Source: Chrysophaeum taylorii (Eukaryota > Sar > Pelagophyceae > Pelagomonadales > Pelagomonadaceae). Taken from it: a stretch of DNA of 61,355 bases. The notes under the pieces were generated by a model, which worked only from the letters and a program-made list of their open reading frames with translations, was not told the origin of the DNA and ran no database searches. Shown here piece by piece: positions 1-45,333 of the stretch (positions are counted from its first letter, which is position 1; every line of letters begins with the position of its first letter). A program made the position numbers and the translations under genes. Location: contig JAQMWT010000506.1 of NCBI GenBank assembly GCA_029834535.1, positions 1 to 61,355 on the forward strand, written 5' to 3'.

Positions 1-2
1 CA

Positions 3-806
3 CTCACGTTGCAGATGCACCAGGAAATTATGACCGTTCCTGCTACGTGGCAATGGGGTGCGACAGTTTCCGAGACAGTAGCTATGAAGATGCTTGGCAG
101 TATGGTGCCACCCGCAACTATGACGCGGATTGCACTAGCAGTGCACAATTTGTTTGACCCTTCACTTCGAAATTTGGGTAAGCTACGGAATATTGCGACG
201 ACGACGCTAGCCCAACCTGATCACCATATTCTACGGTTTTCACCTTTTGCTGTAGAGTCGCGCATTCCGGCGCTCGACCCAGCCACTCGAAGTGTATAAT
301 GGATTGCGCCCGATGAACTCTATTCTCCTGCGAGTCCTGCACCATCAGCTGCTGCCCCCACCACCCCGCCACCACCTTCAGTTACATCGCCTGGGACGGC
401 TTCATCTTTTGCAGGGGGCACCGTCGCCACCACTGTTATGCAGAGCAACCAAGTTGATAACCAGCCCTCCGCAACTGCGGAAGAAGAAGGCACCGCGAAA
501 GAGCGACCAGCGTATATCAATACGTACGACGTTCCGTGGGCGGACGCGCCTCACGACGAACATGGTCAACCTTCACCGGTGATGCCTCCTCATCTAGCGG
601 ATCAGGAGAGCATGCAGGTCATCCCTCCGACCGTCGCGCAGGTCGAAGAGGTGATGACTGAATTGGGTATTACAGAGCATACTGCTTTTGATGATGACGA
701 GAAGCTGATGATGAGGCATTTAATCTCGTAGTCGTGGGCATTTTTCGATGATGTGATGAGACCTGTTGATTCACCTGAAGTGACGCTCCGGTTCAAAAGA
801 AGAGAA
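3..806 (+). pseudogene. C-terminal part of retrotransposon-encoded C5 DNA methyltransferase plus linker to pol (element A)
   Basis: The window opens inside motif IX of a cytosine-5 DNA methyltransferase (LTLQMHQE, following the RP seen in copy B). Motif X follows at about nt 87-113 (KMLGSMVPP), then the helix that normally ends the fold. A proline- and threonine-rich linker (roughly nt 300-480) and an acidic segment lead to the RT. The frame is broken by TAA at 297-299, where copy B has a serine codon, and by TAG at 729-731, where B has tyrosine. An extra base near 800 shifts the frame before the RT. Because the same two motifs occupy the same position in B, the domain belongs to the element family and is not a chance insertion in one copy. 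No catalytic motif is visible here because the N-terminal half lies outside the window. Confidence 0.8.
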
Positions 807-881
807 CCCGACACCCGTCAAACTCTCGCCATATCGGTTGTCGAAAGAAAAGATTGAGTGTTTACGGATGCAGATTGAAGC

Positions 882-1613
882 ATGGACCCGAGACGGAGTT
901 ATTGTCCTGCGAATTCTCCATGGGGTTTCCCTATTTTGATGTTGCCTAAGAAAGGTGCCGAGCCTGGCACTTCCAATGCTTACAGAGCAGCTGTCGACCT
1001 ACGGCGCCTCAATGCATTGCTCAAGGATGATAGCTGGCCGAGTGTGAGCATGGCTGACGCGTTGATGTTTCTCATTGACAAGTTTTGTCGTTCCGGTTTG
1101 GATATTCGTTGGGGCTATCACAATTTACGATTGTCGCTAGATGCACAAGATGTGGTCACCTTCACTAGTCCTCTGGGAGCGTACAGCTACATGCGTCTAC
1201 CCTTGGGAGTCAAAACAGCCGGAAGTTTGTTTTGCAAGCAGTTGAACACTGACTTGTCGCAATGGCTATATCGTGATCTCGTGGCATGTATCGACGATAT
1301 TCTCGCCGGTCACGCAGTTACAAATAATCACTTGCAGTGCCTTGTGCAAGTTATTCCCCGTCTCGCCTTGAAGGGGTACAGCGCCAAGATCAAGAAGATT
1401 CATTTTATGCAAGGAGTCGTTGAGTTTTTGGGTCATTTATCTACCCCGAACGGACTTCTTCCATCACCAAGGTCATTAGAAGCTATCAGACACATGCCAA
1501 TTCCTGGCACTTTGTCAGATGCTGACCCTAAGAAGCAAGTGCGATCTTCCCTTGGAATGGGGAGCTTTTGCCGGCGTTATGTAAGGAATTCTGCGAAAGT
1601 TGCAGAGCCATGA
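882..1613 (+). pseudogene. Reverse transcriptase domain, Ty3/gypsy type (element A)
   Basis: This segment contains the RT core. NSPWGFPI and the MLPKK stretch mark the fingers, LDIRWGYHNLRL carries the first catalytic aspartate, and IDDIL is the Y/CxDD active site (a cysteine replaces the usual first tyrosine in this copy; B keeps YIDD). LPLGVKTAGSLF is the usual block before the active site. The frame ends in TGA at 1611-1613, and the very next codon continues into the RT connection and RNase H (RQLTLPDVKFKW), so this is a nonsense mutation within one polyprotein. Copies A and B remain close at the protein level, suggesting a recent family despite the lesions. Confidence 0.9.
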
Positions 1614-3245
1614 AGACAACTGACGTTGCCGGACGTGAAATTCAAGTGGACGAAAGAGTGTCAGGCAGCTTGGGATGCCATCATCGAGGCTATTGTCACT
1701 TCGAAGGGCGTCTATCATCCTGATTACTCATTACCTTTTTACATTCGAACTGATGCTTCCGCGCATGGGTTGGGTGCTTACCTATTTCAAAAAGTACCAG
1801 TCGTCGACGACGATGGAAGAGAAAGAATCGAAGAGAGAACTATCGAGTACTGGAGTCGAACCGTGCCTAAGTCGATGAGGAAGTACGATCCTCGGCGCTT
1901 GGGACTCCTCGCAGTACTCTCTGCTCTCGAAAATTTCCGATTTTATATCGAAGGTCATCAGACGAAGTTAGAGACGGATCATCGTAATTTAACGTTTCTG
2001 CGGGATTCGAATCCTACGTCTGGACAGTTAGCACGATGGGCTATGCGGCTTGCTGCGTTCGACCGGGAGCTCGGATACAAACCTGGAAGCTCCCCTGGCA
2101 TGCGTATTCCGGATTGTCTGTCGCGCAACCCTATCGACAAATTGATCGAGAAAGATGAAGACGGGGAACCGACCAATGAAGCTTTTTTGATTTTCCAAGA
2201 AATCCCCACCGATGTCCCTGGCACCGCTTGCTTCACCTTCTCTTCGGTGACGATGCCTATGCTGACGGACTGCGGACCCACCGCAGCTATGGTTGCAGTT
2301 AGTACGCGACAGAACGTACAACCGCCTAAATTCTCGTACGAGTCTGAGCCAGTTGACTCCGTCGAACGTCTCCCTTTTGCGGATCAAGCGGAGGATGAGG
2401 TCACTCTCGATGAGATAGCGAAAGAACAAGCTGAGGATGAAACATGCAAGCGCATCAGACGAAAGCTCGACTCTGAACAGAAAGATCAAGACGAGCAGTC
2501 ATCCGCACCATATGAGATTGATGACAACGTGTTGTATAAGGTTGATGATTCAGCTTCTCAACGTCTTATTGTGGTCCCTCAGTCTATGCAGATGCGTGTG
2601 ATCGCCATGCATCACCGGCGCTTGTTCGGAGGCCATGTAGGACGAGATTCCACAGCGAATCAAATCTTAGAACGGTATTGGTGGCCAAACGTCTCATCAT
2701 CCGTTAATGAGTTCGTCAATGCCTGCATTATTTGCCAGAAGATTCGATCCGCCATGCCTAGGCGCCATGGCTTGCTCTGTCAACCGAATCGCGTCGGAGA
2801 CTGCTATGTCCTAGGTATGGATTTGATTGGACCTCTGCGAGGCGCTGACCTGTACACGTACATACTCGCAATGTATGATGCAGCATCACATTTCTTGAAA
2901 TTAGCTCTGATCAACACGAAGCATGATTATTCGATTTTGAACGCGTTTGTGGACAAGATTTTACTTGAGGGATGTCTCCCACGGTGCATAGTCACGGATA
3001 ATGGAAATGAGTTCGCGAACAGGTTATTTCGCACGTTTGTTCGTCAATTCAACGTACGTTATCGTACTACCCTTCCGTATCACCCTCAGAGTAATCATAC
3101 TGAGCGTGTCAATCGATTCATCAAAGCCTTCTTGCGAGCTGCGATCGATGAACAGCGTCAGCCAGATTGGTCGAATTTCCTCCATATGTGTCATTCATGT
3201 ACAATAGGATGTACATTCCGGGAACGAAGATTTCACCTTTCATGA
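1614..3245 (+). pseudogene. RNase H and integrase core of element A
   Basis: RNase H begins with IRTDASAHGLGAYLF (first catalytic Asp) and runs through EYWSRTVPKSMRKYD and LETDHRNL. After an acidic linker comes the integrase zinc-binding domain (HHRRLFGGHVGRDST ... CIICQ), then the catalytic core: GMDLIGPL (first Asp), IVTDNGNEF (second Asp) and HTERVNRFIKAF (Glu), a D,D,E arrangement typical of Ty3/gypsy and retroviral-type integrases. The frame continues from the RT across a TGA at 1611. Near 3190 a one-base loss relative to copy B moves the reading into the frame used by the next feature, so the last ~18 residues here (after WSNFLH) are out of frame. Confidence 0.9.
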
Positions 3246-4090
3246 TGCGTACTGGCAAGCAACCCCTGTTACCACCCGATTACAATCTTTTGAGTGAACA
3301 GCGTGATCTACCGCAATCACGTCATCAGATTTTGGTGGACTTTAAGAACAAGTTTGAATTTCATAGTCGACTCGTCACACGAGCTCACCAGAAAGCACAG
3401 GAGAGTCAAAAACTCAACTATGATGCCCACCAAATTGACATCCAGTTTTCCCCAGGTGATTCTGTTCTGCGTTTCGTGCCTAAGACACGGCACGAGCTAC
3501 GGCCCATTTGGCGCGGACCTTACATGGTTACTAGAAAGATCTCTCCCGTCGTTTATGAAATTCAAGACGTCAACGACGATGATGCTGAATCGGTTGTATT
3601 ATCTGTACAACCGATTGTGCCTTTGAAAGTGCCAACCATCGACAATTCTTCAGCCCCTCTGCATTTACCCTCGGACCGTGACCGGTTCAAACATGGTAAG
3701 TTCGTGATTTTCAGGGTGAAAGGACGATCCAACGCGTGGAAGAAGCGCATCTATGTTGCCGAAGTCTACGAAGAATATGACCACGACAATGATACAGTTG
3801 CGCTTCACTACTATACCGATTTGGGACCACGCGATGATCCTCGCGTCTTTGATCCTACTAAGCCTCTGGCTGAGCGACGCTTAAGACCAGAATACAAAGA
3901 TCCTGACGGAGGTAGCTTCACACGCCTGCGACCAAACATGGAGGGCTGTGAACCCCGTGTGACTGATTTTCGCCCGGATGAAATCGATGTCCTCGTCACC
4001 AACTTCGGTCTCCACAGCAACAAAGTTCCTGCTGATGTAGCTGAACGAGCTTATCGTACCATTCGTGAGCGTGACCTTCGTCACCCTTGA
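3167..4090 (+). pseudogene. Integrase C-terminus with GPY-type domain and extended tail (element A)
   Basis: The frame restarts after the one-base loss and runs uninterrupted to TGA at 4088-4090, 22 bases before the purine tract. It contains the end of the integrase core (YNRMYIPGTKISPF), a GPY/F-type module (LRPIWRGPYMV) and then about 150 further residues. That tail (KFVIFRVKG, IYVAEVYEEYD, ALHYYTDLG, LRPEYKDPDG) is not the usual chromodomain. It recurs in the - strand integrase at 43467-44786, so it is a conserved part of this element group. A Tudor-like or other chromatin-reading role is inference. The separate frame shows this copy could not make one integrase. Confidence 0.85.
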
Positions 4091-4111
4091 AGTCGAGGAC
4101 GACTTCATCTC

Positions 4112-4121
4112 AAGTAGGGGG
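4112..4121 (+). promoter_or_regulatory. Polypurine tract of element A
   Basis: AAGTAGGGGG lies immediately upstream of the LTR start (TGTGG at 4126), the expected place and composition for the plus-strand primer of an LTR retrotransposon. Confidence 0.6.
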
Positions 4122-4125
4122 CTCC

Positions 4126-4709
4126 TGTGGCAGTAACGCCCATTTCCCCCGCTTGCCTGCCTGCCACCTCACTTACCCTGATTGTTGCCCTGGTATTGAT
4201 CTTGCATTTCAGGGGGGGGTGTCATCTCGACATCTTCACCTGCGCTTCCACTGGACCCAATGTACCGGGCATTTGTATTGCTTTCGTGCTGTCTTCTTGC
4301 TATTACCCTCTTTTGATTGTCCGATTTCGTGATGGTTGGCAGCCGGAACGTTCGCAGTGGGACGGGGTATGGCCGGGGGGCGAAGACGGAAGGTTATCGA
4401 CGAGTTGGTTGTCAGTCACATCGCGGTCTCCTCGTCGCATGGCGACAAGCTTGATGGTCACTCTCCGCCGACCGACCTTTCGGCGCTCCTCGTCTACAGG
4501 CCCGTGATTCCGGACTGGCACCTGTCGGTCCGGCCTGGTTCCCATGCTCGGGAGAGGTCTGAAGTTAGTTAGTTAGTTAGTTTCGTGATGGCGTGAGGTA
4601 TAACGCTGAGATCGGGCGTGTGGTGGTTTCACCCGCGGTTCGGGTTGGGAGGAAGGTTTGTTGAGGCCCCCGGTCCGGCCAGGAGGGGCGGGTATCTGAG
4701 AAAACCACT
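4126..4709 (+). repeat. 3' LTR of element A, split by a SINE-like insertion
   Basis: The sequence starts TGTGGCAGTAACGCCC and matches, in inverse orientation, 10328-10689 (the LTR of element B). Homology is interrupted at 4336-4580 by a SINE-like element with an 11-bp duplication and resumes at 4592. The match ends sharply at 4709, where the sequence switches to the - strand pol of B. The true LTR end is therefore probably missing here. Related LTR starts (TGTGGCGGYAACTCC) occur at 12091, 18952 and 43484 (- strand), marking one wider LTR superfamily in this region. Confidence 0.8.
4336..4580 (+). mobile_element. SINE-like retroposon, short subfamily, in LTR of A
   Basis: A 245-bp insert with no coding capacity starts TTGGCAGCCGGAACG and ends in four TTAG repeats. 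It is flanked by an 11-bp direct repeat, TTTCGTGATGG (4325-4335 and 4581-4591). Removing the insert and one repeat restores the LTR as seen at 10480-10500. A near-identical copy is at 31615-31861, and longer relatives are at 24145-24544 and 38566-38930 (- strand). Target duplication, a simple-repeat 3' end and lack of coding fit a SINE mobilised by a LINE. No convincing pol III A and B boxes were seen. Confidence 0.85.
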
Positions 4710-4710
4710 A

Positions 4711-4903
4711 CAAAATGCAGAGGAGCTGAAGAAGTGTCGATGGCTGGCACTTTCGAAGGCACAATCTGTTGTACAGATACTACAACCGACTCAGCATCAC
4801 CGTCGTTGACGTCCCGAATTTCGCAAACGACGGGAGAGATCTTTCTGGTAACTATGTAAGGCCCGCGCCAAATGGGCCGTAGCTTGTGGCGCGTCTTAGG
4901 CAC
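4711..4903 (-). pseudogene. Integrase GPY-type segment, truncated (element B)
   Basis: The translation (KTRHKLRPIWRGPYIV, then ISPVVCEIRDVNDGD) matches the module at 3480-3660 in element A. Similarity stops at SSAPLH (about 4712), and the reading frame then runs into the inverted LTR of element A, giving unrelated residues down to 4577. The conserved C-terminal tail present in A and in the element at 43467 is missing. Between 4904 and 5022 more degraded integrase sequence connects to the next segment in another frame. Confidence 0.8.
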
Positions 4904-5022
4904 GAAAAACGCAGAACATAATCACCTGGGGGAAGCTGGATGTCAATTTGGTGGGCATCATAGTTGAGTTTTTGGTTCTCCTGTGCTTTGTGGTGGCCTC
5001 GTGTAACGAGTCGATTAAAAAA

Positions 5023-5628
5023 TTAAAAGTTGTTCTTAAAGTCCATCAAAATCTGCTGACGCGATTGCGGTAGATCACGCTGTTCACTCAAAAGATTGTA
5101 ATCGGGTGGTAACAGGGGTTGCTTGCAAGTACACATCACGAAAGGTGAAGTCTTCGTTCCCGGAATGTACATCCTATTGTACATGAATGCGACATATGGG
5201 AGGAAATTCGACCAATCTGGCTGACGCTGTTCGTCGATCGCAGCTCTCAAGAAGGCTTTGATAAATCGGTTGACACGTTCAGTGTGGTTACTCTGAGGGT
5301 GATACGGAAGGGTAGTACGATAACGTACGTTGAATTGACGAACAAACGTGCGAAATAACCTGTTCGCGAACTCATTTCCATTGTCCGTGACTATGCACCG
5401 TGGGAGACTTCCCTCAAGTAAAATCTTGTACACAAACGCGTTCAAAATTGAATAATCATGCTTGGTGTTGATCAGAGCCAATTTCAAGAAATACGACGCT
5501 GCATCGTACATCACGAGTATGTACGTGTACAAGTCAGCGCCTCGCAGAGTTCCAATCAGATCCATACCTAGGACATAGCAGTCTCCGACGCGATTCGGTT
5601 GACAGAGCAAGCCAAGACGCTTAGGCAT
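5023..5628 (-). pseudogene. Integrase catalytic core (element B)
   Basis: This holds the integrase core matching element A: GMDLIGTLRGADLYT (first Asp), CIVTDNGNEF (second Asp) and HTERVNRFIKAF (Glu). Unlike copy A it reads correctly through WSNFLPYVAFMYNRM, which locates the frameshift in A. It breaks near 5630, between the zinc-binding domain and the core, and again near 5020. Confidence 0.85.
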
Positions 5629-5679
5629 GGTGGATCGAATCTTCTGGCAAATAATGCAGACAGTGACGAACTCATTAAC

Positions 5680-6519
5680 TTACGATGAGACATTTGGCCA
5701 CCAATACCGTTCTAAGATTTTAGTCGCTGTGGAGTCTCGTCCTGCATGGCCTCCGAACAATCCTCGGTGATGCATGGCGATTACACGCTTTCGCATAGAC
5801 GGAGGGACCACAATAAGACGTTGAGAATCCGAATCATCGACCTTATACAACACGTTGTTATCATCTTCATACGGCACGGATGACTGATCGTCCTGATCTT
5901 TCTGCTCAGAATCGAGATTCCGTTTGATTCGCTTGCACGTGTCATCTTCAGCTTGTTCTTTCGCTATCTCATCGAGAGTGATCTGATCCCCCGCTCGATC
6001 CGCAAAAGGGAGACGTTCGACGGAGTCAACTGGCTCAGACTCGTGCGAGAATTGAGGCGGTTGTACGTTCTGTCGCGTACTAACTGCTGCCATAGCTGCG
6101 ATGGGCCCGCTGTCCGTCGGCATAGGCATCGTCACCGAAGAGAAGGTAAAACAAGCTGTGCCAGGTACATCGGTGGGGATTTTTTGGAAGATCAAATAAG
6201 CCTCATTGATCGGTTCCCCGTCTTCGTCTTTCTCGATCAACTTGTCGATAGGGTTGCGCGACAGACAATCCGGGATACGCATGCCAGGGGAATTTCCAGG
6301 CTGGTATCCGAGCTCCCGGTCGAACGCAGCAAGCCGCATAGCCCATCGTCTAACTGTCCAGACGTATGATTCGAATACCGAAGAAAACGTTAAATTACGA
6401 TGATCCGTCTCTAATTTCGTCTGATGACCTTCGATATAAAATCGGAAATTTCCAAGAGCGGAGAGTAATGCGAGGAGTTCCAAGCGCCGAGGATCACACT
6501 TCCTCATCGACTTAGGCAC
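5680..6519 (-). pseudogene. RNase H remnant, linker and integrase zinc-binding start (element B)
   Basis: The segment begins with the second half of RNase H (MPKSMRKCDPRRLELL, LETDHRNLTF) and continues through the acidic linker to the integrase zinc-binding region (HHRGLFGGHAGRDST). The first RNase H catalytic aspartate (IRTDASAHG in A) is absent because about 390 bases are deleted just upstream (junction near 6550). The copy therefore could not encode an active RNase H even without its stops. Confidence 0.85.
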
Positions 6520-6551
6520 GGTTCGACTCCAGTACTCAATAACTCTCTCTT

Positions 6552-7115
6552 CTATTCTTTCGCCTCCAAAAACTCAATGACTTCTCGCATGAAGTGGATA
6601 TTCTTGATCATGGCGCTGTACCCTTTCAAGGCGAGATGGGAAATAACTTGCACAAGGCACTGCAAGAGATTCTTTGTATCTGCGTGACCGGCGAGAATAT
6701 CGTCGATATATGCCACGAGATCACGATATAGCCATTTCAACAAGTCAGTGTTTAGCTGCTTACAAAACAAACTTCCGGCTGGTTTGACTCCCAAAGGTAG
6801 ACGCATGTAGCTGTACGCTCCCAGAGGACTAGTGTAGGTTACCACATCTTGTGCATCTAGCGACAATCGCAAATTGTGATAGCCCCAACGAACATCCAAA
6901 CTGGAACGACAGAACTTGTCGATGAGAAACATCAACGCGTCAGCCATGCTCACACTCGGCCAGCTATCATCCTTGAGCAATGCATTGAGGCGCCGTAGGT
7001 CGACAGCTGCCCTGCAAGCACTTGAAGTGCCAGGCTCAGCACCTTTCTTAGGCAACATCATAATAGGAAAGCCCCATGGAGAATTCGCGGGACGAATAAC
7101 TCGTATCGGGTCCAT
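6552..7115 (-). pseudogene. Reverse transcriptase domain (element B)
   Basis: This is the RT core with NSPWGFPIMMLPKKG, LDVRWGYHNLRL, MRLPLGVKPAGSLF and the canonical YIDDIL active site. A small shift near 7100 separates it from the upstream methyltransferase-linker frame. The RT ends at VIEFLE and joins directly to RNase H sequence around the EERVIEYWSRT block, marking the internal deletion relative to copy A. Confidence 0.9.
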
Positions 7116-8227
7116 TCTTCAATCTGCATCCGCAAGCACTCAATCTTTTCTTTCGACAACCGATATGGCGAGAGTTTGACGGGAGTCGAGTTCTCTTCTT
7201 TGGACCGGAGCGTCACTTCAGGTGAATCAACAGGTCTCATCACATCATCGAACAATGCCCACGAATACGAGATTAGATGCTTCATCATCAGCTTCTCGTC
7301 ATCATCTAAAGCAGGATGCTCTGTAATGCCCAACTCTGTCATCACCTTTTCGACCTGCGCGACGGTCGGAGGGATGACCTGCATGCTCTCCTGATCCGCG
7401 AAATGAGGAGCCATCACCGGTAAAGGTTGACCATGTTCGTCGTGAGGCGCGTCCGCCCACGGAACGTCGTACTTATTGAAATACGGAGGTCGCTCCTTCG
7501 CGGTGCCTTCTTCTTCAGCATTTGTGGAAGGCTGGTTGTTGGCTTGGTTGCTATGCATAACAGCAGTGGCGACGGTGCCCCCTGCAGAAGATTGAGCCGT
7601 CCCAGGCGATGTAGCCGAAGGGGGTGGTGGGGTGGTGGTGGCAGCAGCTGATGGTGCAGGACTCGCAGGAGAATAGAGTTCATCGGGCGAGATCCATGAC
7701 ACACTTCGAGTGGCAGGGTCGAGCGTTGGAATGCGCGACTCGACAGCAAAGGGTGAAAACCGTAGAATATGGCGATCGGGTTGGGCTATCGTAGTCGTCG
7801 CAATATTCCGCAACTTACCAAAATTTCGAAGTGAAGGGTCAAACGAATTGTGCACTGCTAGCGCGATCCGCGTCATAGTCGCGGGTGGCACCATACTGCC
7901 AAGCATCTTCATAGCTGCTGTCTCTGATACTTTCTCACCCCATTGCCATGTAGCAGGGACGGTCATAATTTCCTGGTGCATCTGCAACGTGAGCGGACGG
8001 GTGTTCGAGAAGCGAGGTCCCATCTGCAATTTGTTGCGCGTCACTGTGAAGGCAGGGTCGATAGCCGGGCGCGTAGATGAGAAACTATTCACTATAATGA
8101 GCGGGTGACCACCTGTAAATCCCAACGCTGGTCCAAAACGGTCCCGTAAATTCGGCGGTACACGCGACAACAACGGCAGTTCCAAGCGAACATTGCAAGC
8201 AAGTAGGCGCGTGCGCGAGCACAGCAA
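7058..8227 (-). pseudogene. C5 DNA methyltransferase C-terminal half, linker and RT start (element B)
   Basis: This follows the previous - strand frame with only a TAA (8228-8230) between them. It opens with motif VIII (CSRTRLLACNV, residues 3-13). A short variable stretch of about 65 residues, the expected place for target recognition, follows. Motif IX is RPLTLQMHQE at residues 77-86 (about 7999-7970), and motif X is KMLGSMVPP followed by an amphipathic helix (residues 107-126). A low-complexity Pro/Thr/Ala linker, an acidic region and the first RT residues complete it. No aspartic protease signature (D-S/T-G) was found between the methyltransferase and the RT, where Ty3 elements usually carry one. 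The methyltransferase assignment rests on motif order and spacing. Confidence 0.85.
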
Positions 8228-9037
8228 TTATGCTGTAATACTATAAAAATCGACAATGCGCGGCACATAAAATTTGTGATGCACAAAAGGGATCACTGAT
8301 GGTTCCTGCTCGAGCGTCCATCGTCCAATTACATAAGGTGCGTTGCGGAAATGACGCAGGATCCAAGAGGTAATAGTAGCGCCCTTGCGTGCGTCCCTGT
8401 AGTGCAAATTGGCAGTCGACCCATAGATACACGGTGGACTTGCGGGAAAATAAGAGTGCTTCCAAAATTTTGAATGTAAATACGACAACACCAAGTCGTA
8501 AGTACGACGATGAGATTTCACCAACTCGTGCAAAACATAGGGAATCTTCGGAAAATTGAGCTCAAAGGTGGCTCGGGCTTGGGGACAAGCATCCAAAGCC
8601 AAGACAATGCGAAATGAACTGCCATATAGTACATTGCATCGCCGGATACCCAACGTTGATCCTCCAGCGCCAGCAAAGTAGACGACGACAAAGGTGTAGG
8701 TGATGTGTATCCAAACCAAGGAGGCGTGCTCAGATAGAAGCTCCTTAGCGGTCGGCTCCATCTCCATTTCTGGTGTTTTTTTCACTTCTTCATCTGGAGG
8801 TGGCTCAGGAGGGGGTCTGTCACTCAAGACATCCTTCTCGACTTCACTCTCGTCAACAGCAGCCATGAGAGTCGCATGACAAACGTCCTCAGTGGCCTCT
8901 AGCTGCATGTCGACACATCCTTCATGCGGCATGATCTCGCCTTCCACCTTATGCTGCAACTGCATAAACCACCCGTTAGCCTCATCCTGGGTCTTGGTGA
9001 TTTGCCCGGTGAGATGCGAAAACGTGATACGAGTCAT
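8228..9037 (-). pseudogene. C5 DNA methyltransferase N-terminal catalytic half (element B)
   Basis: This 269-residue segment has an acidic, proline-rich N-terminus (residues 60-100) followed by a Rossmann-type methyltransferase start. Motif I is YFAGAGGSTLG (residues 120-130, about 8680-8648). It is followed by VLALDACPQARATFELNFP, which matches the motif II region where AdoMet is bound. Motif IV is ASPPC at 199-203, with the presumed nucleophile Cys203 (about 8431-8429) and a downstream GSTAN. A motif VI-like LEQ is at 242-244, where the classical form is ENV. The frame then reads RIVDF and hits TAA at 8228-8230, while motif VIII continues in the same frame. In the family the enzyme methylates C5 of cytosine in DNA. 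Whether this copy was ever active is unknown. Confidence 0.85.
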
Positions 9038-9178
9038 ACCAGCAGCTCCCTTCTTGATCTGAAGTAGCTCTTCGTCGTCACGAGGACGTGCTGAACCGGG
9101 GTGAGCATGATGCTGCGGAGTAGGCCCCGGTCGACTTCGCGGTGGCTGATCGTCGGCCAGTGCCGATACAGCGTCATC

Positions 9179-9856
9179 TTATTCAGGCGCAACACGCGTA
9201 GCATCCGGAGAGGCTGGCCGTGCCTCTCGAGCATGCGCCCGCGTGGATTCCTCCACCATTCGTCGAAGTCGATCGTTGTCGATCCGCGGCCGCTCCACTT
9301 CTGAGCGTTGTTGCTGCGCGTCGCGGCGGTTGCGCCCAATTTCACGTAGGACCTGTTCGATCTGCGACTGGTACATCTCGAATCGTTCGATGATGGCCTG
9401 CAGAATTTCGGGGTCGGTATCCACTCGAAGATCTGCCGCAGCTCTCGTATTGGCGGATGGTGGCCTAGGAGATGCACTCTTCTCTGGTCCACGCACCGCC
9501 GTAGTAAGTCCGGGGTCCGTTCGAGATGACCCCGTAGCATCCATCGCACGTTCGTAGGGTCGTGCGTACTGGAACGTCGGCTCACCCGGTCTTGAAGTTG
9601 CGTCTGGCGCAACCGTAGCTCCCCCTTCGCCGGCGCGTGGATCCGGAATGATGACCACGCTTGGGGAGCTGTCGAGGCTATCAGATGATATTGCCTCTCT
9701 TCCGATGCCGCTTTCCTCGGCTTCCGGCCGTTGAAAGGGCGTGCTGAACGGTGTTCTTCCAATAGACGCAAATGGAGTCCCTGCACTGAATCGTTGCAGA
9801 CGCTCCTCTGCGTCCCGAAACCACTGCGGTCGTTCTGTCATTGGCCTTTTTGCCAT
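9179..9856 (-). CDS. Gag-like coiled-coil protein of element B
   Basis: A 225-codon frame starts at an ATG following the leader. The N-terminus is basic (MAKRPMTERPQWFRDAEER), the middle is rich in Ser/Pro, and residues about 150-205 are a charged, Gln/Arg/Glu-rich probable coiled coil (IERFEMYQSQIEQVLREIG). It ends at TAA (9179-9181), about 140 bases before the methyltransferase frame. Its layout resembles the G4 gag N-terminus at 19614. No zinc knuckle or clear capsid domain is visible, and the gag proper seen in G4 seems absent, so an internal deletion is likely. Confidence 0.55.
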   Translation of the reverse strand: MAKRPMTERPQWFRDAEERLQRFSAGTPFASIGRTPFSTPFQRPEAEESGIGREAISSDSLDSSPSVVIIPDPRAGEGGATVAPDATSRPGEPTFQYARPYERAMDATGSSRTDPGLTTAVRGPEKSASPRPPSANTRAAADLRVDTDPEILQAIIERFEMYQSQIEQVLREIGRNRRDAQQQRSEVERPRIDNDRLRRMVEESTRAHAREARPASPDATRVAPE

Positions 9857-10327
9857 GACCGCGCTTTGCCCGGATAATAGGATTAATCCGAACGCTCAAA
9901 ACTCGCTTGTTATACTCCTTTTCGTCAGACGACAATTGCCGGCAGCCGCCTGACTGCGCGCTGTACCGGTACGCTGGACTTACGGAAGTTTTTGCCTTGC
10001 GTGCGAAGGTTATGGACGGCCTTCCCGGTGCTCTCGCTCGCCGTCAGGGAGGTGGTCTGCCTCGCGCGAGCTAGGTTAGGGCTTACTCTGTTGCCTTGTG
10101 GTTAGGTCTTACGATTGCTTTGCCTGGTGGAGTCGTAGTGACTCCGCTCCCCGTTCGATCCGAATCACGCAAAATGAACCCCGCGGCTGTACCCGCGATC
10201 CCCTGGATCTTCACCCACAAATGCGTCGGCTTCGCACTCACTCGACCGTTACGAACCAACTCGCCGCCGAAAACAGGAGATCGATAGTCCGGGAGTTGGA
10301 CTATCGATTCCCGTTTCTGAGACCACC
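9857..10327 (-). other. Leader / possible LTR remainder of element B
   Basis: This non-coding stretch lies between the recognisable LTR and the gag-like ATG. With no second LTR of B in the window the LTR 3' end cannot be fixed, so this interval may include the rest of the LTR as well as the primer-binding site. No tRNA-complementary segment was identified with confidence. Confidence 0.5.
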
Positions 10328-10689
10328 GTAGTGGTTTTCTCAGATACCCGCCCCTCTTGGCCGGACCAGAGGCCTCAACAACCCTTTCTCCAAACCCGAA
10401 CCGCGGGTGACCCTTTCTCCCAACCCGAAACGCGGGTGAAACCACCACACGCCCGATCTCAGCGCAAACACCTCACGCCATCTTAAAATCGGACAATCAA
10501 AATGAGGGTAATAGCAAGAAGACAGCAAGAAAGCAATACAAATGCCTGGTACATTGGGTTCAGTGGAAGCGCAGGTGAGGATGTCAAGATGACACCCCCC
10601 CCCATAATTGCAAGGTCAGTACCAGGGCAACAACCAGGGCAAGTCAGGTGGCGGGCAGGCAAGTGGGGGGAATGGGCGTTACTGCCACA
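10328..10689 (-). repeat. 5' LTR of element B (recognisable part)
   Basis: On the - strand it begins TGTGGCAGTAACGCC at 10689 and matches 4126-4335 plus 4592-4709 in inverse orientation, without the SINE found there. It therefore acts as the empty-site reference for that SINE insertion. It directly abuts a reader-domain relic at 10690, which appears to be the sequence into which B inserted. Confidence 0.8.
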
Positions 10690-12400: not shown

Positions 12401-12434
12401 GGTAGCCCCTAAAATCCTCCTTACGCCACAATTG

Positions 12435-12718: not shown

Positions 12719-12751
12719 CTGCACTTGTTACACCCTAGCGCTGATAACACG

Positions 12752-24698: not shown

Positions 24699-24783
24699 GG
24701 TATTGGGCACCAGTCCCGGTATCAGCAGAGCCCCAAGATTTCCAGAAGAGTCCCGCTCCCTGACGTTCCTGAACCCAAGCAAA

Positions 24784-26671
24784 ATGCCAGCCAATCAAGA
24801 ACTCCAAAAGGAGATAAGCGAACTAGAAGCCAAGTACCAAAGAGACATGCAACAACAAGCTCAAGCGTACGAAGCTCGGCATCAAAGGGAGATGGCAGCA
24901 CAAAAACAAGACAACGACGCTCGCTTCCAAGCACTCGAAGCGCGATTTAGTGCCATGCAGGCACCACCACCTGCCGTCGCTGCTGCGGCTCCACCCCCCA
25001 CTCCAGCTCAACAAGACCCCAAGACCAAGGCTAACACCTTTAGTGACCCACCTAGCGCCGTCCTCAAGTCAATGGACTCCGCGCAAGTCACACCCCAAAT
25101 GCTTTCGTTTCGTGTTATGCAGTTGTTCGTCGAACATCTGATGCCTGAAACAGGCACAACACAATACTTTTTGCAGGGCTTCAACACGTGGGAATCCGTC
25201 TTGCGCTGTTCTAACGATCTCGCTGACGCTCTTCTCAGCCACTGCATCAAGGAATACGATAAGGATCCCGACAACCACTCTACCGCCGGGAACACGCAAG
25301 ATTTCCAAGGCCGTTACGTCTACTACAATGGTATTTATCGCAAGTTCGGCAAACACTTCTTAGAGACCGTCTACGAGCCAAAGCTCCGAGAACTCAAAGA
25401 CCAAGACAAGGACACGACCGATACGACGAAAGGCAAGTTGTATGCGATCACTCAACATCACCTCCAAGGAAAAGAAGCCGACTTCATCGCGTACCTCCGC
25501 GAGACCGTGCACCCCCTCTTTCGCCGTTTCCTACATGCCGGTAGCGACTCCGTCAAGCACCCAGCATACGACGAAATTGACGCACTCGGATCTTCCCATC
25601 CGATAGGACTCGAATTCGTACTCCAAGTTCGCCTCGCACTTGACAAGCACACGGGCCAGAACCACGTCCACCATGCGCATTACGTCTATAATGCCTTCCT
25701 GGACACGCCGTTCAACCCGGAGATCCACGAGCCTGCGCACTATATTGAATATATGCGCCATGTTCAGCAGCAACTCCGCCAAATCACCAACGATGCCTCT
25801 CTCCAACTTTCCGACGACAAGATCCTCGAGGAAATCCACCAACTCCTTCGCTTCAAGTACCCCCCAAGCTTGCTTGACTCCCGCGCCCCAACACACATCA
25901 AGGGCTTCGCGCGTCTTGCCAATTGTCTACGTACTCCAAACGACTCGCTATTACTCGACGAAGACAAAGAAGCCATTAACCACCTTCCCAAGTTGATCGC
26001 CCGCATCACGGTTATCTCCACCTTCGAGCGCAACTTTTGGGCTCACCTTAAGCCTCATCCCACCCTCAACTTCAAGCCGCTGCGATTCGTCACTGACTTT
26101 GGTCGTCTACCGACTAAGGACAAGGATAATCCACGTTTCCGCTCCCGCCGCCATGGTCTTCACTTCACTGAAGACGATGAAGATGACACCCCCTCTGAAG
26201 ACGACATCCCTCCGGATCCCAATGAAGCCTCCAACGAAGACACCGACCCTGTTGCCGTCTTTCTCACTGAAGCCAACCTAGATGAAGATGACGACAATGA
26301 TCTCATCCAACACCTTCACGCCTATAGAAAGAAACAGCTCACGCGACATCCCAAGAAGCCCCCCCCAAAAAGCCTCCAAATCCTCGCTCTCCGTCGTACT
26401 ATGAAACCGATGACAGCCCCAAGCCCAAGGTTCCCCCTGTCACCCCAACGAAGAACAAGCAAAACCCCCGTGCTTCTCCTGTCACCCCCGACAAACGCGA
26501 GCACCCGCAGCTTCGCAAGGTCGCCTTTCCCACCCAACCGCTTCCACCAAAGCCATCCACTCCTGACCAACGATATTTAAAGGTCCCCTTCGTGAAGTCC
26601 GTCGCAAGCTCCAAACCATACGGAATCCGAGCCAAGCCGGTCGCCAACACACGTCCAACTCCGAGCGCATG
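24784..26671 (+). pseudogene. Gag polyprotein of C2
   Basis: The ATG at 24784 (MPANQELQKEISELEAKY) starts a protein with an N-terminal coiled coil (residues 1-60), a Pro/Ala stretch, and a long helical capsid-like region (about 90-470), then an acidic tail and a Lys/Pro-rich basic end. At the eight-C run near 26358 the frame shifts: the plausible continuation (NPRSPSYYETDDSPKPKVPP...) is in another frame and ends TGA at 26669-26671. The uncorrected frame stops at 26580. No zinc knuckle was seen; the basic tail may replace it. Confidence 0.7.
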
Positions 26672-27951
26672 AACAAGCTAATCAACCTCATCACCACTAT
26701 CTCCGATGAGATACTTCTCTCCGAAGCAGATTGCGATGCCGCGGAGTTTCTTCAGGTGCTATCGTCCGATCCTCAGGATGATCCACCTGATGAGGGCGAA
26801 ACTGACGAAAAAGATGACCAAGACCACCTCGGTTTCTATGATGACCACGGGCAGCTAGGCCTCTACGACGACACCATCCCCGAAATCCACGATGAAGATG
26901 ACTCCGCCGAAGACTACGCACAACGTCACAGCGACTATATGCGTACTCTACACCCGAGTCAGCTTTTTCGCTGATGGTTGCCGACGACGCCAGTGCCACG
27001 AACCACATCTTGCTCAATCAGGCACCAAGCCTCACGACGACGAATTTCCCGACCTCATCAACAATCTCACCCAGAGTCGCAGATTTTCTTTGTGCCACTT
27101 ACACTCCAGGAAAGACATCAAAGAAGACTAACTCGCTGCACGGATGCAATGGACCCGGCACTTAAACTTCTTTAATTGACGGTGGCGCATCATTTTGCTT
27201 CACTCGCACAATCCAACACTTTGTTCCCGAGTCCATACGCCGGATTCCCGAACACACCATACGTATGGGAAGAGGCACCTTAACCAGCCATTTCATCGGT
27301 GTCAAACCGTTGTATTTGCAGGCCGCAGGTCTCTCCTCAACGGATATAAAAGAATCAACAGGTTACGTTTTATATCTCGTAGCTACGGTCGTCCCGCAAT
27401 TCAGAAAAGGTCTACAGGCTATAGCGACATCTCAGCTCCAAGCACCGAACGTACGAGCAACCGACCCGCCATTGCCACATGAACCATACCTCTACGAGCT
27501 TATGAACACGTCGACCGCAGATCCCCACGATTATAAGACGCTTATAGGCAAAACAGCAGTAGTTCTCGCCAATCGCCAAACCAATGGCCTGTTGTCCCTG
27601 CCGTCTCATCCAAAGCAAACATTCCGCGCTGTGCTTAGTTTTCACACCGGAACGCGAATGTCACTCAAGGATGAGCTCGCACACATCACGCAGCATGTCG
27701 CAAAGACACGCTCGCAATCCCATATGTTAGATTTCGCAAAGTTGCAGTGTCATTCACTATTTCTATCGGAACTCATTAGCCTCCCGCGTACTGTTCTCCA
27801 ATATGCATTCACTGGCTCAGCGGGCCTCTCTGTGCAAGCACAACCCCCTCCGCTAAAAACAGCTATTATTGCAGGTGGACTCCACCAAGAAGGCTTCACC
27901 TCTTTTTCGCAAGCGCTTCGACAAACGTATTACTGTCGTGGTCGCCTGTGA
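26669..27951 (+). pseudogene. Protease region of C2
   Basis: An ATG overlaps the corrected gag stop as ATGA (26668-26671 region) and opens an acidic 101-codon frame (to 26974). A second frame, interrupted by a TAA near 27163, contains SLIDGGASFCF (about 27168-27200), the aspartic protease site in the D-G-G form, and GRGTLTSHFIGVKPLYLQAAG, typical of copia proteases. It continues to TGA at 27951. Frame changes near 26970 and a stop before the active site show decay. Confidence 0.65.
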
Positions 27952-28433
27952 AAATTCACCCTATTATGCGCGCCCGCGCGCAACAGCTCTTCCCGCACGC
28001 TCAGCATTATGCGGATCTAAGAATGCTCAATGCCGCTCTGCAAACCGGCAAAATACGACTACCTCATTTCGACTTAGCAGTTTTCACACTGCCATGTCAA
28101 CATTTGAGTGGAATGAAAGAATGCGACGACTACGCCACTCCGGTGACCGCCGACCTTTTCGTCAAATAACAAATCCGCTTTGTTCGTTGCACGCGCCCGA
28201 CCTGCACCTTTCGAGAACGCACCTCCCAACCCCCGAGAACTCATCACGAGTACACCCAACTCGCTAAATGCTACCAGCGCTTAGGTTACTTCAGACACTC
28301 CGGTGTCTACAATGCCTCCGCTTTTGGCGACGTCATAAGCAAGACCCGCTATCTCGCTGTCTATGCCCGACACCCGCTCACCGATTACAACCTCGAGAAA
28401 ACCGCCTCTCCTTGGTTACTATCACCTCCGAGC

Positions 28434-31400
28434 ATGGTTCCCCTCCTGGACCCTAGTCACACTACCCCCGACGATCTCTGGATCGCCAACCCCGCCCTTC
28501 GTGGCACCGTGCCCCGCTCCACCTTGGCTTGTTACCAGCACAAGGCCACCTTCCCCTACAAACCCGCCAACGCCTCTAAACTCTCGATTTCCGAAAATGC
28601 CCGCATCTGTCAAATGCTTGCACGCTTCACCAAGCCCTTCACGGATCTAGGTCTAGACGCCGACGGCACTCCCTATTCTACCATGACCAACATCTCCCAT
28701 CTCCTGGTTTTCGCATTGCTGCACAACCACTTGTCGCAACATCCCACTCTCGCCGCTTGGAACACCCTCCGCTGTTTTCATGCCTCAGAGTCCCAATGTG
28801 CTTACCATTTGGATGGAGCCATCACCGGCACCGTCGCTACTGCCGTCGCCTGTGGCTACTTCCCGCGCGCTTCCCTCACCCTACACTCCAGGCCCCCTCA
28901 GATATTGGACTGTTCCCATCAACCCGCAGTCTTCTCCCCAACGCACGCCTTTTCCCTGGATGTTCCCAAGGGCACCGCCGTTCAGGTCGTCGCCTACACC
29001 ACCTCCTTGGCCGCCGCTCACAGCTGCTCGCGCCCGTCCACTTGGGTCCACTACATGAATCGCTCGCATCCTGGCTTTGCCGCGATCGACTCACGAGGGC
29101 GAATTACTCTCGATGACCCCAAGGGACTCATAATATCCAAAGCACGTCCCACTTACGCGGACTATGTCGGCCACATCGGAGACACGCTTCAGAAAAGCAC
29201 CAAGTGCTACTCGGTCACTGGCTCGTACCCAACCAACACGAGCTACTCCAACGACTTGCTGCTGATCTCTCCAGACCACATCCGCTATGCAACCCTCAAC
29301 GAAATCGCAAAGTTTGGACACCACTCGGACCCGGAACTGCCCCGTCTGTTCCAACAACACCCGCCGTACTTCGCGTTTAAGGCACTGGCCAACACCGTCC
29401 CGCACCACGTGCTGCAGGCAAAGTACAGCGCTGTCCTCGCACTCCACGAATCGCACCAGCACGTGAACTTTCACATCGAATGGGCAACAATACGCAATGG
29501 CATCCCCAGCCGCGGAGACATCAACCAGGTTGCAGAATTCTGCCTGAACATCGCCAGCCGTCTCTTAGCAGAGGAGGACCTCAACCTCACCTCCCTATTC
29601 AATGCCGTAGCAGATGCTCACCATGATGCGATCCGCAAGCCAAGCAAATCGAAAAACCTCGAGACGCTTCTTGCCGAGGCAACCGTTGCTAAAGTCCGAG
29701 TTGACAAGCGACCCAGCCCCCCCAGCGCTTCGACTGCCGCTCTGCCCCCCTTGCACAAGCCCGGTACCATTCAGCACGCCAAAAGAGTGCTTTTGGTCAC
29801 TCGCTGGCACCGAATACACCACCACCAACCAGAGATTCTTCGCCGCACGATTGCCGTCAATGTAACGAATCTCCGCCCAGGTGATGATTGGTATCTGCAA
29901 GACTGCCGTGAATGCAAGCGCTGCCAATCGAATGTAAGCTTCAGTCACAAGAACAATTCCTGGTCACAGGATGAACTCGCCTATGCTCCTGGCCAACATC
30001 TCCACATGGATGTCTCATACCTGAGCATTACCAAATGCTATGGTGGCTTTCGTTACATCATGCATTTTGTGTGTATTATCTCAGCACACAAGTGGGTCTA
30101 TTTTAGGAAACTAGACGCACAGGGCGTTCTGGCTGGCATCCTCTACGTGGCCAATGTGATTAAGGTCGAATTCAATGTAAATGTGAAAATCATCTCGTCC
30201 GATGCATTCTCAACTTTCCGCTCCGAAGCATTCCACCCGCTCAAGGTGCAACTCGGCATCCAGTTTCAAATCATTGGTCGCCACCTCCACCAGCGGAACT
30301 TCGCGGAAAACATCATCGAGGAAAACACCCGCGGCACCGTAGTTCGCCTCCTCAGCCTGTGCAGTGTCCGCATCGAAGGAAAGCCCATCGCCGCCGAGTA
30401 CTATCACCCATTTGCTCTGCTGCATAAGACCCAAGCCGACAACCAGCGCTCTCATGGACTGCCCTCGCGCACCAACATGCCTTGCACCGTCCCCATGCGC
30501 ATCATGTCACCCATGGCACCGCCCTTGAGGCTCCTTCCCTTTGGCGAACATGTCACCTTTGTCTACCCTCATAGTCACAAGCTGGAACCCTCCAGCGTCT
30601 CCGCCTCTTATCTTCATAGCAACAATTACCTCCCGAACTTCCCCGGCACAGACCGATTTGTCCGTGATGTTCATAGCTCTATCCTGCTTGTACATCAGGG
30701 GCGACATGGCAAAATCGTCACCTCTAACGACTTCCACGTTGATGCAGACGTGCCAGTCGACCGCAACAAGGTGATCGAACGGATCAAAGCACTCGCGCAG
30801 ATCCCAACAGAGGCACGGCAAGAGGACCCGCTCCCAGCTATAAGCGAACAGCAAATGCCGGAAGCTAGACAGGAATCGAAAAATGAGGGCGAGACTCAAG
30901 ATGACGACCAGGATGACGAACTCGACGATGATGACGAGCACAACGAACCGGATCCAACCTCCGCTGCAGATCCAAGTCCCGTCAGCGACGAGACACCTGA
31001 ACAGGATTTTTCGTTCCTCAACCGGCCACCTCCGCCGGATGGTAGCATTCCGATGCCCAAACGAAAAGATCGCCTAGAGGTTGTTCTCGACGATTCAGGT
31101 TTTACCCCAGTTCTCGTGCATCGCAACCAGAGCGACAAACTCAAGGCAGATCTCAAGGACGAGCGCGGATTCCGCATTCCCAAGGACCAACTCTATATCG
31201 TGAAACGTGTCGACGATGGAAAACTCTTCATAAGACGCATTATCGCTTCAGAGTATGGTCGCAACTGGAAATACCAGCAGGAGCAATCCACGGCTCGCGC
31301 CACAGCGAACATGTCCAGCACATTGATGTTCCTCATCAGTGTCAGCGCTCTGCACCGGGGCCATGCCGTCAGCATCGTATCTGATCTCAACATTAGAAGG

Positions 31401-31614
31401 GATGCTCAGCCGCCAAATGATGTCCCGAAAGGATGTCTCCTAGCAAATACCACACAAGACTATGGTATCATGGGCGGCACCGCACTGGATTTGCAGAGAG
31501 AAACCGACGCAGAACTCTTGTATGTTGACTTCCCAAGGAAGCCGTACCACTCATCTGTATTGGTTGACCACCTTGATAACGACAATTCTGTTCTCGAGAA
31601 CTATGTGTGCCACG
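28434..31614 (+). pseudogene. Integrase region of C2, interrupted by SINE
   Basis: A frame of about 1,060 codons is open up to the SINE. It includes the zinc-binding region (RIHHHQPEILRRT ... CRECKRC, about residues 460-500) and the integrase core: LHMDVSYL (first Asp, about residue 526), IISSDAFSTF (second Asp, about 589) and NFAENIIEE (Glu, about 626), followed by an acidic linker (about 820-880) and the start of the post-integrase segment. At 31615 the SINE begins. Frames between 27952 and 28433 hold degraded pre-integrase sequence. Confidence 0.8.
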
Positions 31615-31861: not shown

Positions 31862-31864
31862 TAT

Positions 31865-43139: not shown

Positions 43140-43484
43140 AGAGTGCGTGCGCGGTGGTCGGTATGGCGGCACAGAAAAACCACTCCCGACCCCCGGGTGA
43201 CAAAGGGGGTACTCACCGACTCGTCCTAGACCTCACTAAACGAGGAAAACACGGACTCGGGATCGGATATGCTCGCCACACACCTTGCTCACGCTCACCA
43301 AGCCTCTCAACAAGATGGAGAGATGGTATATGATAGCAAGAATGCGACAAGAATACTGCAAGAATGCTTCTCACAAGAGAGAGGTATGATGTCACTAGGA
43401 AGGTAGGGAAAGGCGTCCCGTTGAACGGGTACCAAGCCTCGGGGAAGGGAGGGTAAGCCTTAGCGGTCAGGAGTTGCCGCCACA
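43140..43484 (-). repeat. 3' LTR of - strand Ty3-like element
   Basis: On the - strand it starts TGTGGCGGCAACTCCTGACC at 43484 and matches the LTR at 18952-19290. The integrase frame of the adjoining element ends 17 bases inside it. Confidence 0.75.
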
Positions 43485-44786
43485 GGACTCCCCTGGTGAG
43501 AACACGAGCTGCCCTCCGCGAGTCCGGCGAGAAGCACGAGCCTTGGCTGAATGAGCGTCTCGGGAACGAATCTTCTTGTAGACACGTTCAACGACAGGTT
43601 CAGGAACGCGTCCACTACGCAAAATGAACTTAGGAATCAACTCAGGAACGCGTCCACTACGCAAAATGAACTTAGGAATCAACACATCGATCTCAGGCGG
43701 GGCGACGTCGGCGACACAAGGAGTGGTACTGTAGTTGACCTTGGTCTTGTCGGTGAAACTGCGACCGTCCACGTCCTTGTATTCCGGCTTAAGCTTGCGA
43801 GTAGAGAGACGTGAGGTAGGCTTGTAATAAGAAACCTTGTCATGGGGACCAAGATCAGCATAGAAATGCAGAGCGACTCGATCATTCACAAAATCATAGG
43901 GTTCGTAAACTTCAGCGACGTAAATCTTCTTTCGCCAGTCGGACCGTTTGTTATCCGGAATCCGAAAGATAACGAACTTACCATGCTTGTAATCATCCCG
44001 AAAGGTCTCCTTGGGCTTGGGCACAGCTCGATCGACCGCTGGAGAAACCATCACAGGGGTAATCTGACTAACATGAACACAACGGCGTTCGGGACGATAA
44101 TCGAGAGACTCAATCCTGTAAATGACCGGGGACAAGCGTTCCAAAAAAATAACGAATGGACCGCGCCATTCCGGTCGAAGCTTGTTCTGAAGAAAATGGA
44201 TGTAGAGCAGAACATGTGAACCTTCTTCATACTCCACATCAACATGGTCCGCATTATAGGCGAGACGTTGTTTACGAAGAGCCTTCTCGCGAGCTTCGTT
44301 CACCGTAGCGGTATAGAACTTCCGCCTCTCGCGAGTCTCTGCCACAACATCGGAGCGAGTTTTCGGCAGGCGGCGGACATCAAGATCCATGATCGTGTAA
44401 TCAGTTGGTAATAAAGGCTGCCGGTTAAGACGAAGCATGAAAGGTGAGATCTGAGTTCCCGGAATAAACTTACGATTGTAACAAAAAGCAATGTACTCCG
44501 CGAATTCGGGCCATTCCGCGATATTGCGGTTTTGAAGGCACGCACGGAGGAAAGCCTTGATAAAGCGGCTGACCCTTTCCGCAGGATTAGCCTGAGCATG
44601 ATACGGAATCGTGGTACTATACCGAACTATGAAAAGATGACAAAACTCTTCCATCAACTTGTTGACGAACTCGTTCCCATTGTCGGTACGAATCCTCTGA
44701 GGTAGATAACCTTTGAGTAATATATTCGCGACAAAAGACTCGGGGATTGACTCGGCAGTCTTGTGGTGTAGTACGTCAAGAATCAA
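43467..44786 (-). pseudogene. Ty3-like integrase C-terminal half, intact frame but 5'-truncated
   Basis: A 439-codon frame starts in mid-integrase. It has RIRTDNGNEFVNKL (second Asp), ERVSRFIKAFLRA (Glu in NPAERV), a GPF-type module (LRPEWRGPFVIF) and the long tail seen in element A (KFVIFRIPD, IYVAEVYEPYD, LHFYADLG, LKPEYKDVDG). A 42-base tandem duplication (43602-43685) repeats IPKFILRSGRVPE. The first Asp, zinc-binding domain, RNase H and RT are missing because the element is cut at 44787 by the 540-bp repeat. The lack of stops suggests recent truncation. Confidence 0.85.
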
Positions 44787-44791
44787 GAAAT

Positions 44792-45333
44792 ACCGTCACA
44801 CAACAAATATGTACAGTAGACCACCGCCAAACACATTGTCGCATTGTACTCGTAATCAGGCGTAAACTGATCACTCCATTATACGCACAACACAACTGGG
44901 CTGACACACCTACGCATCTGGGCCCATAACCTGGAGAGATTTGACCCTCTCCGGGTACATGGTAGAGACTGCGTGCAGTCTTAGGCGTGTACAGACCATT
45001 CCGCTTGTCACATGCTACTACACAAGGTAGGGATTTAGGCCCTAACTCCTTAAGAACATTAAGTCCCATAGGAGCGTTTACACTGACAACGAGGAACGAA
45101 GCCTCTGTTGATTAAACAGAAAACACCGTACCTGACGGTACGCACCTGGAGACCTACTCCATGTTGGAAGAGAGCTTCAGACTGTATTATTCATAGTCAT
45201 GAATAAGTAATTGCGGAAGGGCAAGGAAGGAAAGAGGGAAAGCCGTATTGCGGAGAGAAAACCCTCTAGTGCAGATAGGTGTGAAAGGAGTAAGATGTTC
45301 CAGTGTCGTACACGTAATAGTGTAGCTCTCTGG
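44792..45333 (-). repeat. 540-bp repeat, copy 1 (possible 3' LTR)
   Basis: On the - strand it runs CCAGAGAGCTAC...TGTGTGACGGT and matches 53198-53733 (+) throughout, and 53860-54265 (-) in part. It cuts the Ty3 integrase at its left. As it shares orientation with copy 3, the two may be LTRs of one - strand element. The termini are not the usual TG...CA. Confidence 0.7.

Follow-up and report, generated by a model that had tools for sequence, protein, structure and literature searches.

A C5 cytosine methyltransferase (DNMT) domain found in Chrysophaeum taylorii belongs to a decayed member of a high-copy Ty3/gypsy family, in which the DNMT is encoded between a protease-like domain and the reverse transcriptase (RT). 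The domain lies in a window of 61,355 nt (the whole stretch of DNA analysed), which is one entire contig of the 697 that make up the 70.8 Mb genome assembly. Substitution rates between copies of the family indicate that selection maintains the DNMT domain, at a level of constraint similar to that of the integrase.

The DNMT of the window lies in a defective Ty3/gypsy element

The first-pass annotation had described DNMT motifs at 7883..8690 on the minus strand. All of them are where it placed them, and the full domain is slightly wider. The features of the window that belong to the gypsy family, including a second element of the same clade (copy A) beside the one that carries the domain (copy B), are listed here.

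7835..8731, minus strand: C5 cytosine methyltransferase (DNMT) domain of copy B, defined by motif reading, Pfam and alignment with relatives
8228..8230, minus strand: in-frame TAA stop inside the copy B DNMT
4713..10689, minus strand: copy B, a defective clade I Ty3/gypsy element, broken off at 4713
10328..10689, minus strand: 5' LTR of copy B, starting TGTGGCAG; inner edge approximate
8948..10327, minus strand: gag-side remnant of copy B, joined to the DNMT side near 8934-8948
4713..7199, minus strand: RT, RNaseH and integrase part of copy B
1..4712, plus strand: copy A, a second clade I element, its 5' end truncated by the contig end
4126..4712, plus strand: 3' LTR of copy A, broken at 4334-4581 by a 248-base repeat
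43467..44795, minus strand: integrase end of a clade III relative of the gypsy family

The DNMT motifs of copy B occur in order: motif I (FAGAGG), a II-like motif, motif IV (SPPC), a VI-like LEQE, a VIII-like SRTRLL, motif IX and motif X (LGSMVPP). The two halves of the domain match the Pfam profile PF00145 separately and in order, the first at profile positions 7-75 (E 1.3e-3, 18.6 bits) and the second at positions 260-320 (E 2.1e-4, 21.3 bits), both below the cut-off of 22 bits. A primer-site-like TGGTCTCAGAAACGGGA directly follows the 5' LTR. Relative to locus L031, copy B is without approximately 2.6 kb of the gag and protease region, with a junction that is common to other copies, and about 0.38 kb is absent at 6566. 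Copy A retains the final 53 residues of the DNMT domain (3-161), followed by RT, RNaseH, integrase and the 3' LTR.

The domain is a remote member of the C5 methylase family

Seven frames from other copies were run against Pfam, six of them bearing the DNMT and one from the gag side. Five of the six DNMT-bearing frames passed the PF00145 cut-off (33.5, 30.7, 28.2, 23.7 and 23.3 bits), the outcome expected of the C5 methylase that the first-pass annotation had proposed to check by HMM. The remaining frame (L036) was matched in its C-terminal part only, at 17.1 bits and below the cut-off, and the gag-side frame gave no match. The PHROG_116 profile 'DNA methyltransferase' matched three copies (E 7.7e-10, 4.1e-10 and 7.1e-8), and the NCBIfam dcm profile matched the same three weakly, far under its own cut-off. 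In a whole-genome scan with PF00145, none of the places of the gypsy-family DNMT was among the matches listed (at least 57, with 123 of 474 candidates scored), which marks the domain as a remote member of PF00145.

A profile built from 15 gypsy DNMT domains found six proteins at E 0.026-0.89 (4236 candidates from 5.8 billion), all of them PF00145 members. The same profile aligned end to end with these six C5 methylases over 283 columns at E 5.9e-12, a value that flatters the likeness because the six are the profile's own best hits; for comparison, the host Dnmt2-like protein, another host methylase and a second DNMT-bearing family (see below) reach E 1.2e-5 to 5.8e-5 against these proteins. 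When a 17-domain profile was compared with the PDB at E up to 1, the only match was 8yf3, a cytosine-specific methyltransferase (E 0.031). Sequence searches found no relatives of a clade II DNMT at E up to 1e-3; with a clade II polyprotein and a limit of E 10, nothing related to its DNMT region was found either. The viral contigs and prokaryote genomes searched likewise held no relatives of the gypsy DNMT, and a single phage DNA methyltransferase matched it weakly (E 0.03). Two AlphaFold models were poor (pLDDT 40.4 and 37.6) and give the fold no structural confirmation; a fold search with the model of pLDDT 40.4 returned DNMT3A/3B at ranks 1-5 (E 5e-3 to 1.1e-2, TM 0.31-0.35), a result that would favour Dnmt3 but carries little weight.

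The motif IV Cys (Cys101 in alignment numbering) and the motif VI Glu141 are both invariant in two alignments, of 17/17 and 15/15 rows, which contain stop-free rows only and overlap in their sets (L042, which has stops, was excluded). Locus L046 has PSC in place of PPC at motif IV and keeps the Cys. Motif VI reads EQE, not ENV, in the aligned rows of clades I, II and III, with L057 (EHS) as the exception. A Ser is found in motif VIII (SRTRLL/SRxRLL), at a position where C5 methylases usually have Gln.

The domain shares with prokaryote/phage-type C5 methylases (8yf3, PHROG_116 and the proteins P0001-P0006) the order of its motifs, an FSGAGGSSLG-like motif I, SPPC, a T-T ahead of motif IX and VPP in motif X. 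The six C5 methylases P0001-P0006 are free-standing and have ENV and a PQxRxR-like sequence (P0002 differs in motif VIII); in the retroelement domain, EQE and SRxRLL stand at these places, and fewer residues separate motif VIII from motif IX. In its sequence the gypsy DNMT resembles prokaryote/phage-type C5 methylases, with no close relative found in our searches, and the enzyme is perhaps of a non-Dnmt3 type.

Architecture, mobility and copy number of the family

The order of domains in the family is gag, a zinc-knuckle-like CX2CX7HX4C, a retropepsin-like region, DNMT, RT, RNaseH, integrase and a C-terminal extension. The gag (one weak match, E 0.039), the knuckle and the DGMA motif of the retropepsin-like region were read by eye, and the remaining domains were taken from Pfam. 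DGMA replaces DTG in the copies read of each clade (L031, L037 and L040), and the D(T/S)G retropepsin signature expected of Ty3/gypsy elements was not seen in them. The RT-RNaseH-integrase order is that of Ty3/gypsy, as exemplified by L034 (RVT_1 1068-1231, RT_RNaseH 1327-1439, Integrase_H2C2 1611-1669 and rve 1692-1781, the last scoring below its cut-off). With the PF00145 and PHROG_116 matches, this order upholds the earlier assignment of a C5 DNMT domain to the inside of a Ty3/gypsy element.

All three clades, I to III, have the DNMT at the same place (gag-PR-DNMT-RT-RNaseH-IN, the clade III order having been assembled from L039 and L040). Clade II agrees with clade I at 83% in the DNMT and 90% in the RT, and with clade III at 33-49% and 64-72%, respectively. 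From the shared position we infer that the DNMT of the three clades was inherited from one capture, which would have preceded the split of the clades.

Locus L038 has paired 331-base LTRs that are 99.4% identical and, as read by eye, TG..CA ends, a GCCG target duplication and TGG after the 5' LTR. The LTR identity and the target duplication together suggest recent movement. L038 also carries the 2.6 kb gag/protease deletion junction, so that a deletion derivative which keeps the DNMT seems to have been recently mobile. The same junction was found in 10 of the 30 loci L001-L030, with other junctions there in two and a continuous sequence in 18; these loci are those that match the window copy best, the window itself among them, and so are not a fair sample. 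The deletion derivative with DNMT, RT and integrase has spread, presumably in trans.

Using the C-terminal part of the DNMT as query, we obtained at least 151 genome matches, fragments included (150 of 599 candidates scored). With a clade III DNMT as query the number was at least 134 (134 of 1004 candidates scored), none of them below 79% identity, and the matched stretch is stop-free in 109 of the 134 clade III matches listed. Four places at 40% identity from the C-terminal query are of the clade III kind, and those on C244 and C109 recur in the clade III search. Some contigs resemble duplicates of one another (C10/C297, C6/C268 and C25/C521), and some copies were therefore counted twice. Other genomic copies of the DNMT region thus exist, and there are copies whose domain has no in-frame stop; the first-pass annotation had suggested looking for both.

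Selection on the DNMT

For the DNMT, the comparison of clade I with clade II gives a dN of 0.094, a dS of 1.67 and a dN/dS of 0.056 (0.063 with another clade II copy). Elsewhere in the element, the dN/dS between these clades is 0.027 for RT, 0.052 for integrase, 0.071 for RNaseH, 0.12 for protease and 0.22-0.30 for the linkers, with copy A of the window standing for clade I in the integrase and RNaseH comparisons; the dS of gag is saturated. Values of dS above 1 are imprecise, and dN alone gives nearly the same picture: 0.034 for RNaseH, 0.066 for RT, 0.079 for integrase, 0.094-0.105 for the DNMT, 0.165-0.407 for the linkers, 0.194 for protease and 0.503 for gag. When the domain is divided into twelve blocks of 25 residues, the block that starts at the catalytic Cys is the best conserved between clades I and II (96%).

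Within clade III, the dN/dS of the DNMT is 0.144-0.166 (three copies, one with four stops). Within clade I, summed dN over summed dS is 0.17 (20 copies, six with one stop; 190 pairs), and the median dN/dS is 0.19 over the 183 pairs with dS >0.02. For one recent clade II pair, which shows 13 differences, the dN/dS is 1.05, a value to be expected if copies drift after insertion. Since the DNMT appears to have been kept intact by selection, the element probably uses its predicted enzyme when it moves.

A second DNMT-bearing family

The PF00145 scan of the genome listed a Dnmt2-like host gene on C634 and another host C5 methylase on C621 among its matches, and the other 55 of the at least 57 listed cover only profile positions 12-175. 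Three of these 55 were read out, and their domain is a different one that has TLPC and, in most cases, ENV. The DNMT of this second family gave at least 152 genome matches as query (150 of 385 candidates scored), among which many of the 55 PF00145 places recur. The window contains one degraded copy.

24700..31613, plus strand: second element, approximate extent
24700-26580, plus strand: gag-like frame of the second element
27166..28400, plus strand: degraded copy of the second DNMT-bearing family, with protease-like LIDGGASFCF and then DNMT pieces (matched stretch 27948-28340)

A frame of the second element at 28170-31787 matches integrase weakly (rve, E 0.024, under the cut-off) and continues into a 248-base repeat at 31613. 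The window copy of this family showed no RT, and no relatives of the family were found in the viral contigs searched. The candidate reading that a gypsy LTR cuts the second element at 31.6 kb proved wrong, as the insertion is the 248-base repeat. This repeat is present in the window at 4334-4581, 31614-31862 and 38565-38810 (approximately 97% identical, the third copy reversed). The first of these lies within an LTR and the next within the second DNMT element; L043 and L038 have the repeat too.

A profile comparison of the two retroelement DNMT types showed no significant similarity (E 0.38), which makes two separate DNMT captures likely. The wider reading is that two unrelated retroelement lineages hold different DNMT captures, at least one of them of the prokaryote/phage type and not Dnmt3, and that both have reached high copy number; we consider it plausible, with confidence that falls just short of an even balance.

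CpG content and host background

The ratio of observed to expected CpG is 1.04-1.28 in the element-bearing stretches measured, some of which include flanks, and 0.95 in the neighbouring PIKfyve-like gene. Differences of the type CG to TG/CA between copies amount to 8.0%, against 6.3% for the GC control (1.27-fold; 312 of 435 pairs), in a test of CpG decay that is confounded by coding constraint. The transition averages by context are 0.073 for CG, 0.066 for CT, 0.061 for CC and 0.045 for CA, with CG little above the others. These values speak against lasting CpG methylation of the copies, of which there is no strong trace, or else indicate efficient repair. The footprint test is blind to a brief mark on cDNA and to other sequence contexts.

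The host genome contains 22 dynein heavy-chain matches, some of which are exons of one gene, and 84 chlorophyll a/b-binding matches, many in tandem. The first-pass annotation had assumed a red alga as host, which the dynein heavy chains and the large LHC family rule out. To our knowledge, red algae lack dyneins, and we take dyneins together with a large LHC family to point to a stramenopile or haptophyte. The host also has one SRA-type domain, of a type that usually reads 5mC. A C5 methylase at C621:16800-18200 (L052) lies in an open frame of 2086 residues and has TSC at motif IV and ENV at motif VI; the GC content of the host methylase loci L051 and L052 is 0.68 and 0.65, respectively, compared with 0.48 in the PIKfyve-like frame of the window.

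Possible functions of the gypsy DNMT

As the best explanation of the whole, we propose that the gypsy DNMT methylates newly made cDNA before or at integration, a proposal in which our confidence is evenly balanced. The DNMT would be made as part of the polyprotein and packed together with RT and integrase. Once packed, it would methylate the new double-stranded cDNA before or at integration, and the new copy would enter the host already marked. Such a mark might shield the cDNA or make insertion less costly. In favour of the proposal we count the identity of the domain, its shared place in three clades, the selection on it, the copy number, the apparent recent movement of L038 and the methylation of CG in yeast by two SymbioDIRS-Dnmt3 DNMTs; against it we count the inactivity in the same yeast assay of the Klebsormidium Gypsy DNMT, a result that its authors call inconclusive (both yeast results from passages of PMC5890265). 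The lack of a strong CpG trace, the EQE of motif VI, the Ser of motif VIII, the dN/dS of 1.05 of one clade II pair and the poor AlphaFold models were also counted against it.

The lack of a strong CpG footprint would suit an enzyme that acts on RNA. According to this alternative, the DNMT modifies packaged genomic RNA or a primer tRNA in a Dnmt2-like manner and aids packaging, stability or priming. The gypsy profile does align end to end with the host Dnmt2-like protein (E 1.5e-4, probability 51%), and de Mendoza et al., in passages of PMC5890265, propose RNA as the target of LINE DNMTs. However, the prokaryote/phage-type C5 methylases match far better (E 5.9e-12), albeit having been selected as best hits, and we consider an RNA target unlikely.

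We think it quite unlikely that the DNMT methylates host DNA in trans, near insertions or older copies, where silencing would limit damage and permit coexistence at high copy number. The high copy number, the many open DNMT frames and the SRA-type domain of the host are in keeping with such a role, but the copies themselves are without a strong CpG footprint. The altered motifs VI and VIII could also mean that the fold is retained as a nucleic-acid- or SAM-binding module without catalysis. This is very unlikely given that the catalytic Cys and the Glu are invariant in the stop-free, overlapping rows (17/17 and 15/15) and that the block starting at the Cys is the most conserved of the twelve when clade I is compared with clade II. 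A last alternative is that the likeness arose by chance or that a single copy carries a piece of a passenger gene. The window copy alone does fall under the Pfam cut-off, and the gypsy family is absent from the PF00145 genome-scan matches listed, but the longer frames above the cut-off, the same place in three clades and the strong selection already contradict this alternative, and we give it almost no credence.

Relation to known DNMT-bearing retroelements

DNMTs are known in Gypsy elements of Klebsormidium and in DIRS and LINE elements of Symbiodinium (passages of PMC5890265). Like KnitGypsy-Dnmt3 of Klebsormidium nitens, the family described here is an LTR Gypsy element that encodes its DNMT within the Pol frame, has intronless copies and shows purifying selection (Ka/Ks <0.2 in Klebsormidium; passages of PMC5890265). 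The two differ in host. They also differ in enzyme type, as the KnitGypsy DNMT groups with Dnmt3, whereas ours matches the prokaryote/phage type and has EQE at motif VI, and in their repeats, which are DIRS-like in KnitGypsy and ordinary paired LTRs with a 4-base target duplication in L038 (passages of PMC5890265).

Hundreds of DNMT-bearing copies and more than one element type are features shared with SymbioDIRS-Dnmt3 and SymbioLINE-Dnmt of Symbiodinium, in which the elements are DIRS and LINE and not Ty3/gypsy (passages of PMC5890265). According to the same passages, most CGs of Symbiodinium are methylated and the LINE-Dnmts are CG-poorer, whereas the element-bearing stretches measured here are not CpG-depleted. 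DNMT3 in LTR Copia and DIRS elements is mentioned in passages of PMC12344493, and a non-C5 methylase in a DNA transposon is described in passages of PMC12477816. The passages of PMC9998398 that we consulted name no DNMT-bearing element of such a kind, and words beginning methyltransferase, methylase or DNMT are absent from PMC5963040. Our literature search found no report of this element, a weak negative with most subscription papers outside its scope.

Judged by sequence matches, the capture is likely to be separate from the charophyte and dinoflagellate ones. The gypsy DNMT family is apparently new in its host and perhaps in its enzyme type, and its general kind is already known. Many hosts silence retroelements by cytosine methylation; here, a large retroelement family preserves a methyltransferase of its own. 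If the wider reading of two different captures is true, self-methylation of cDNA, perhaps in a non-CpG context, would be a repeatedly favoured strategy of LTR retrotransposons and no Dnmt3 curiosity. A further host lineage is combined here with a Ty3/gypsy element whose LTRs are ordinary, an enzyme unlike Dnmt3 in its sequence and another DNMT family in one genome. This makes the system a good test bed for any benefit of the DNMT to the element and any effect of it on the host methylome, and at 70.8 Mb the genome is small enough for a methylome to be cheap.

Other features of the window

A single-frame protein of the PIKfyve/Fab1 type is encoded at 12692-18091 (1799 residues, with FYVE, TCP1 and PIP5K domains; GC 0.48). 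Short direct repeats around AGGTGAACTTACTGGG are found at 12431-12719, just ahead of this PIKfyve-like frame. Finally, a reverse transcriptase of the Ty1/copia type is encoded on the minus strand at 57533-59785 (RVT_2, E 2.4e-39).
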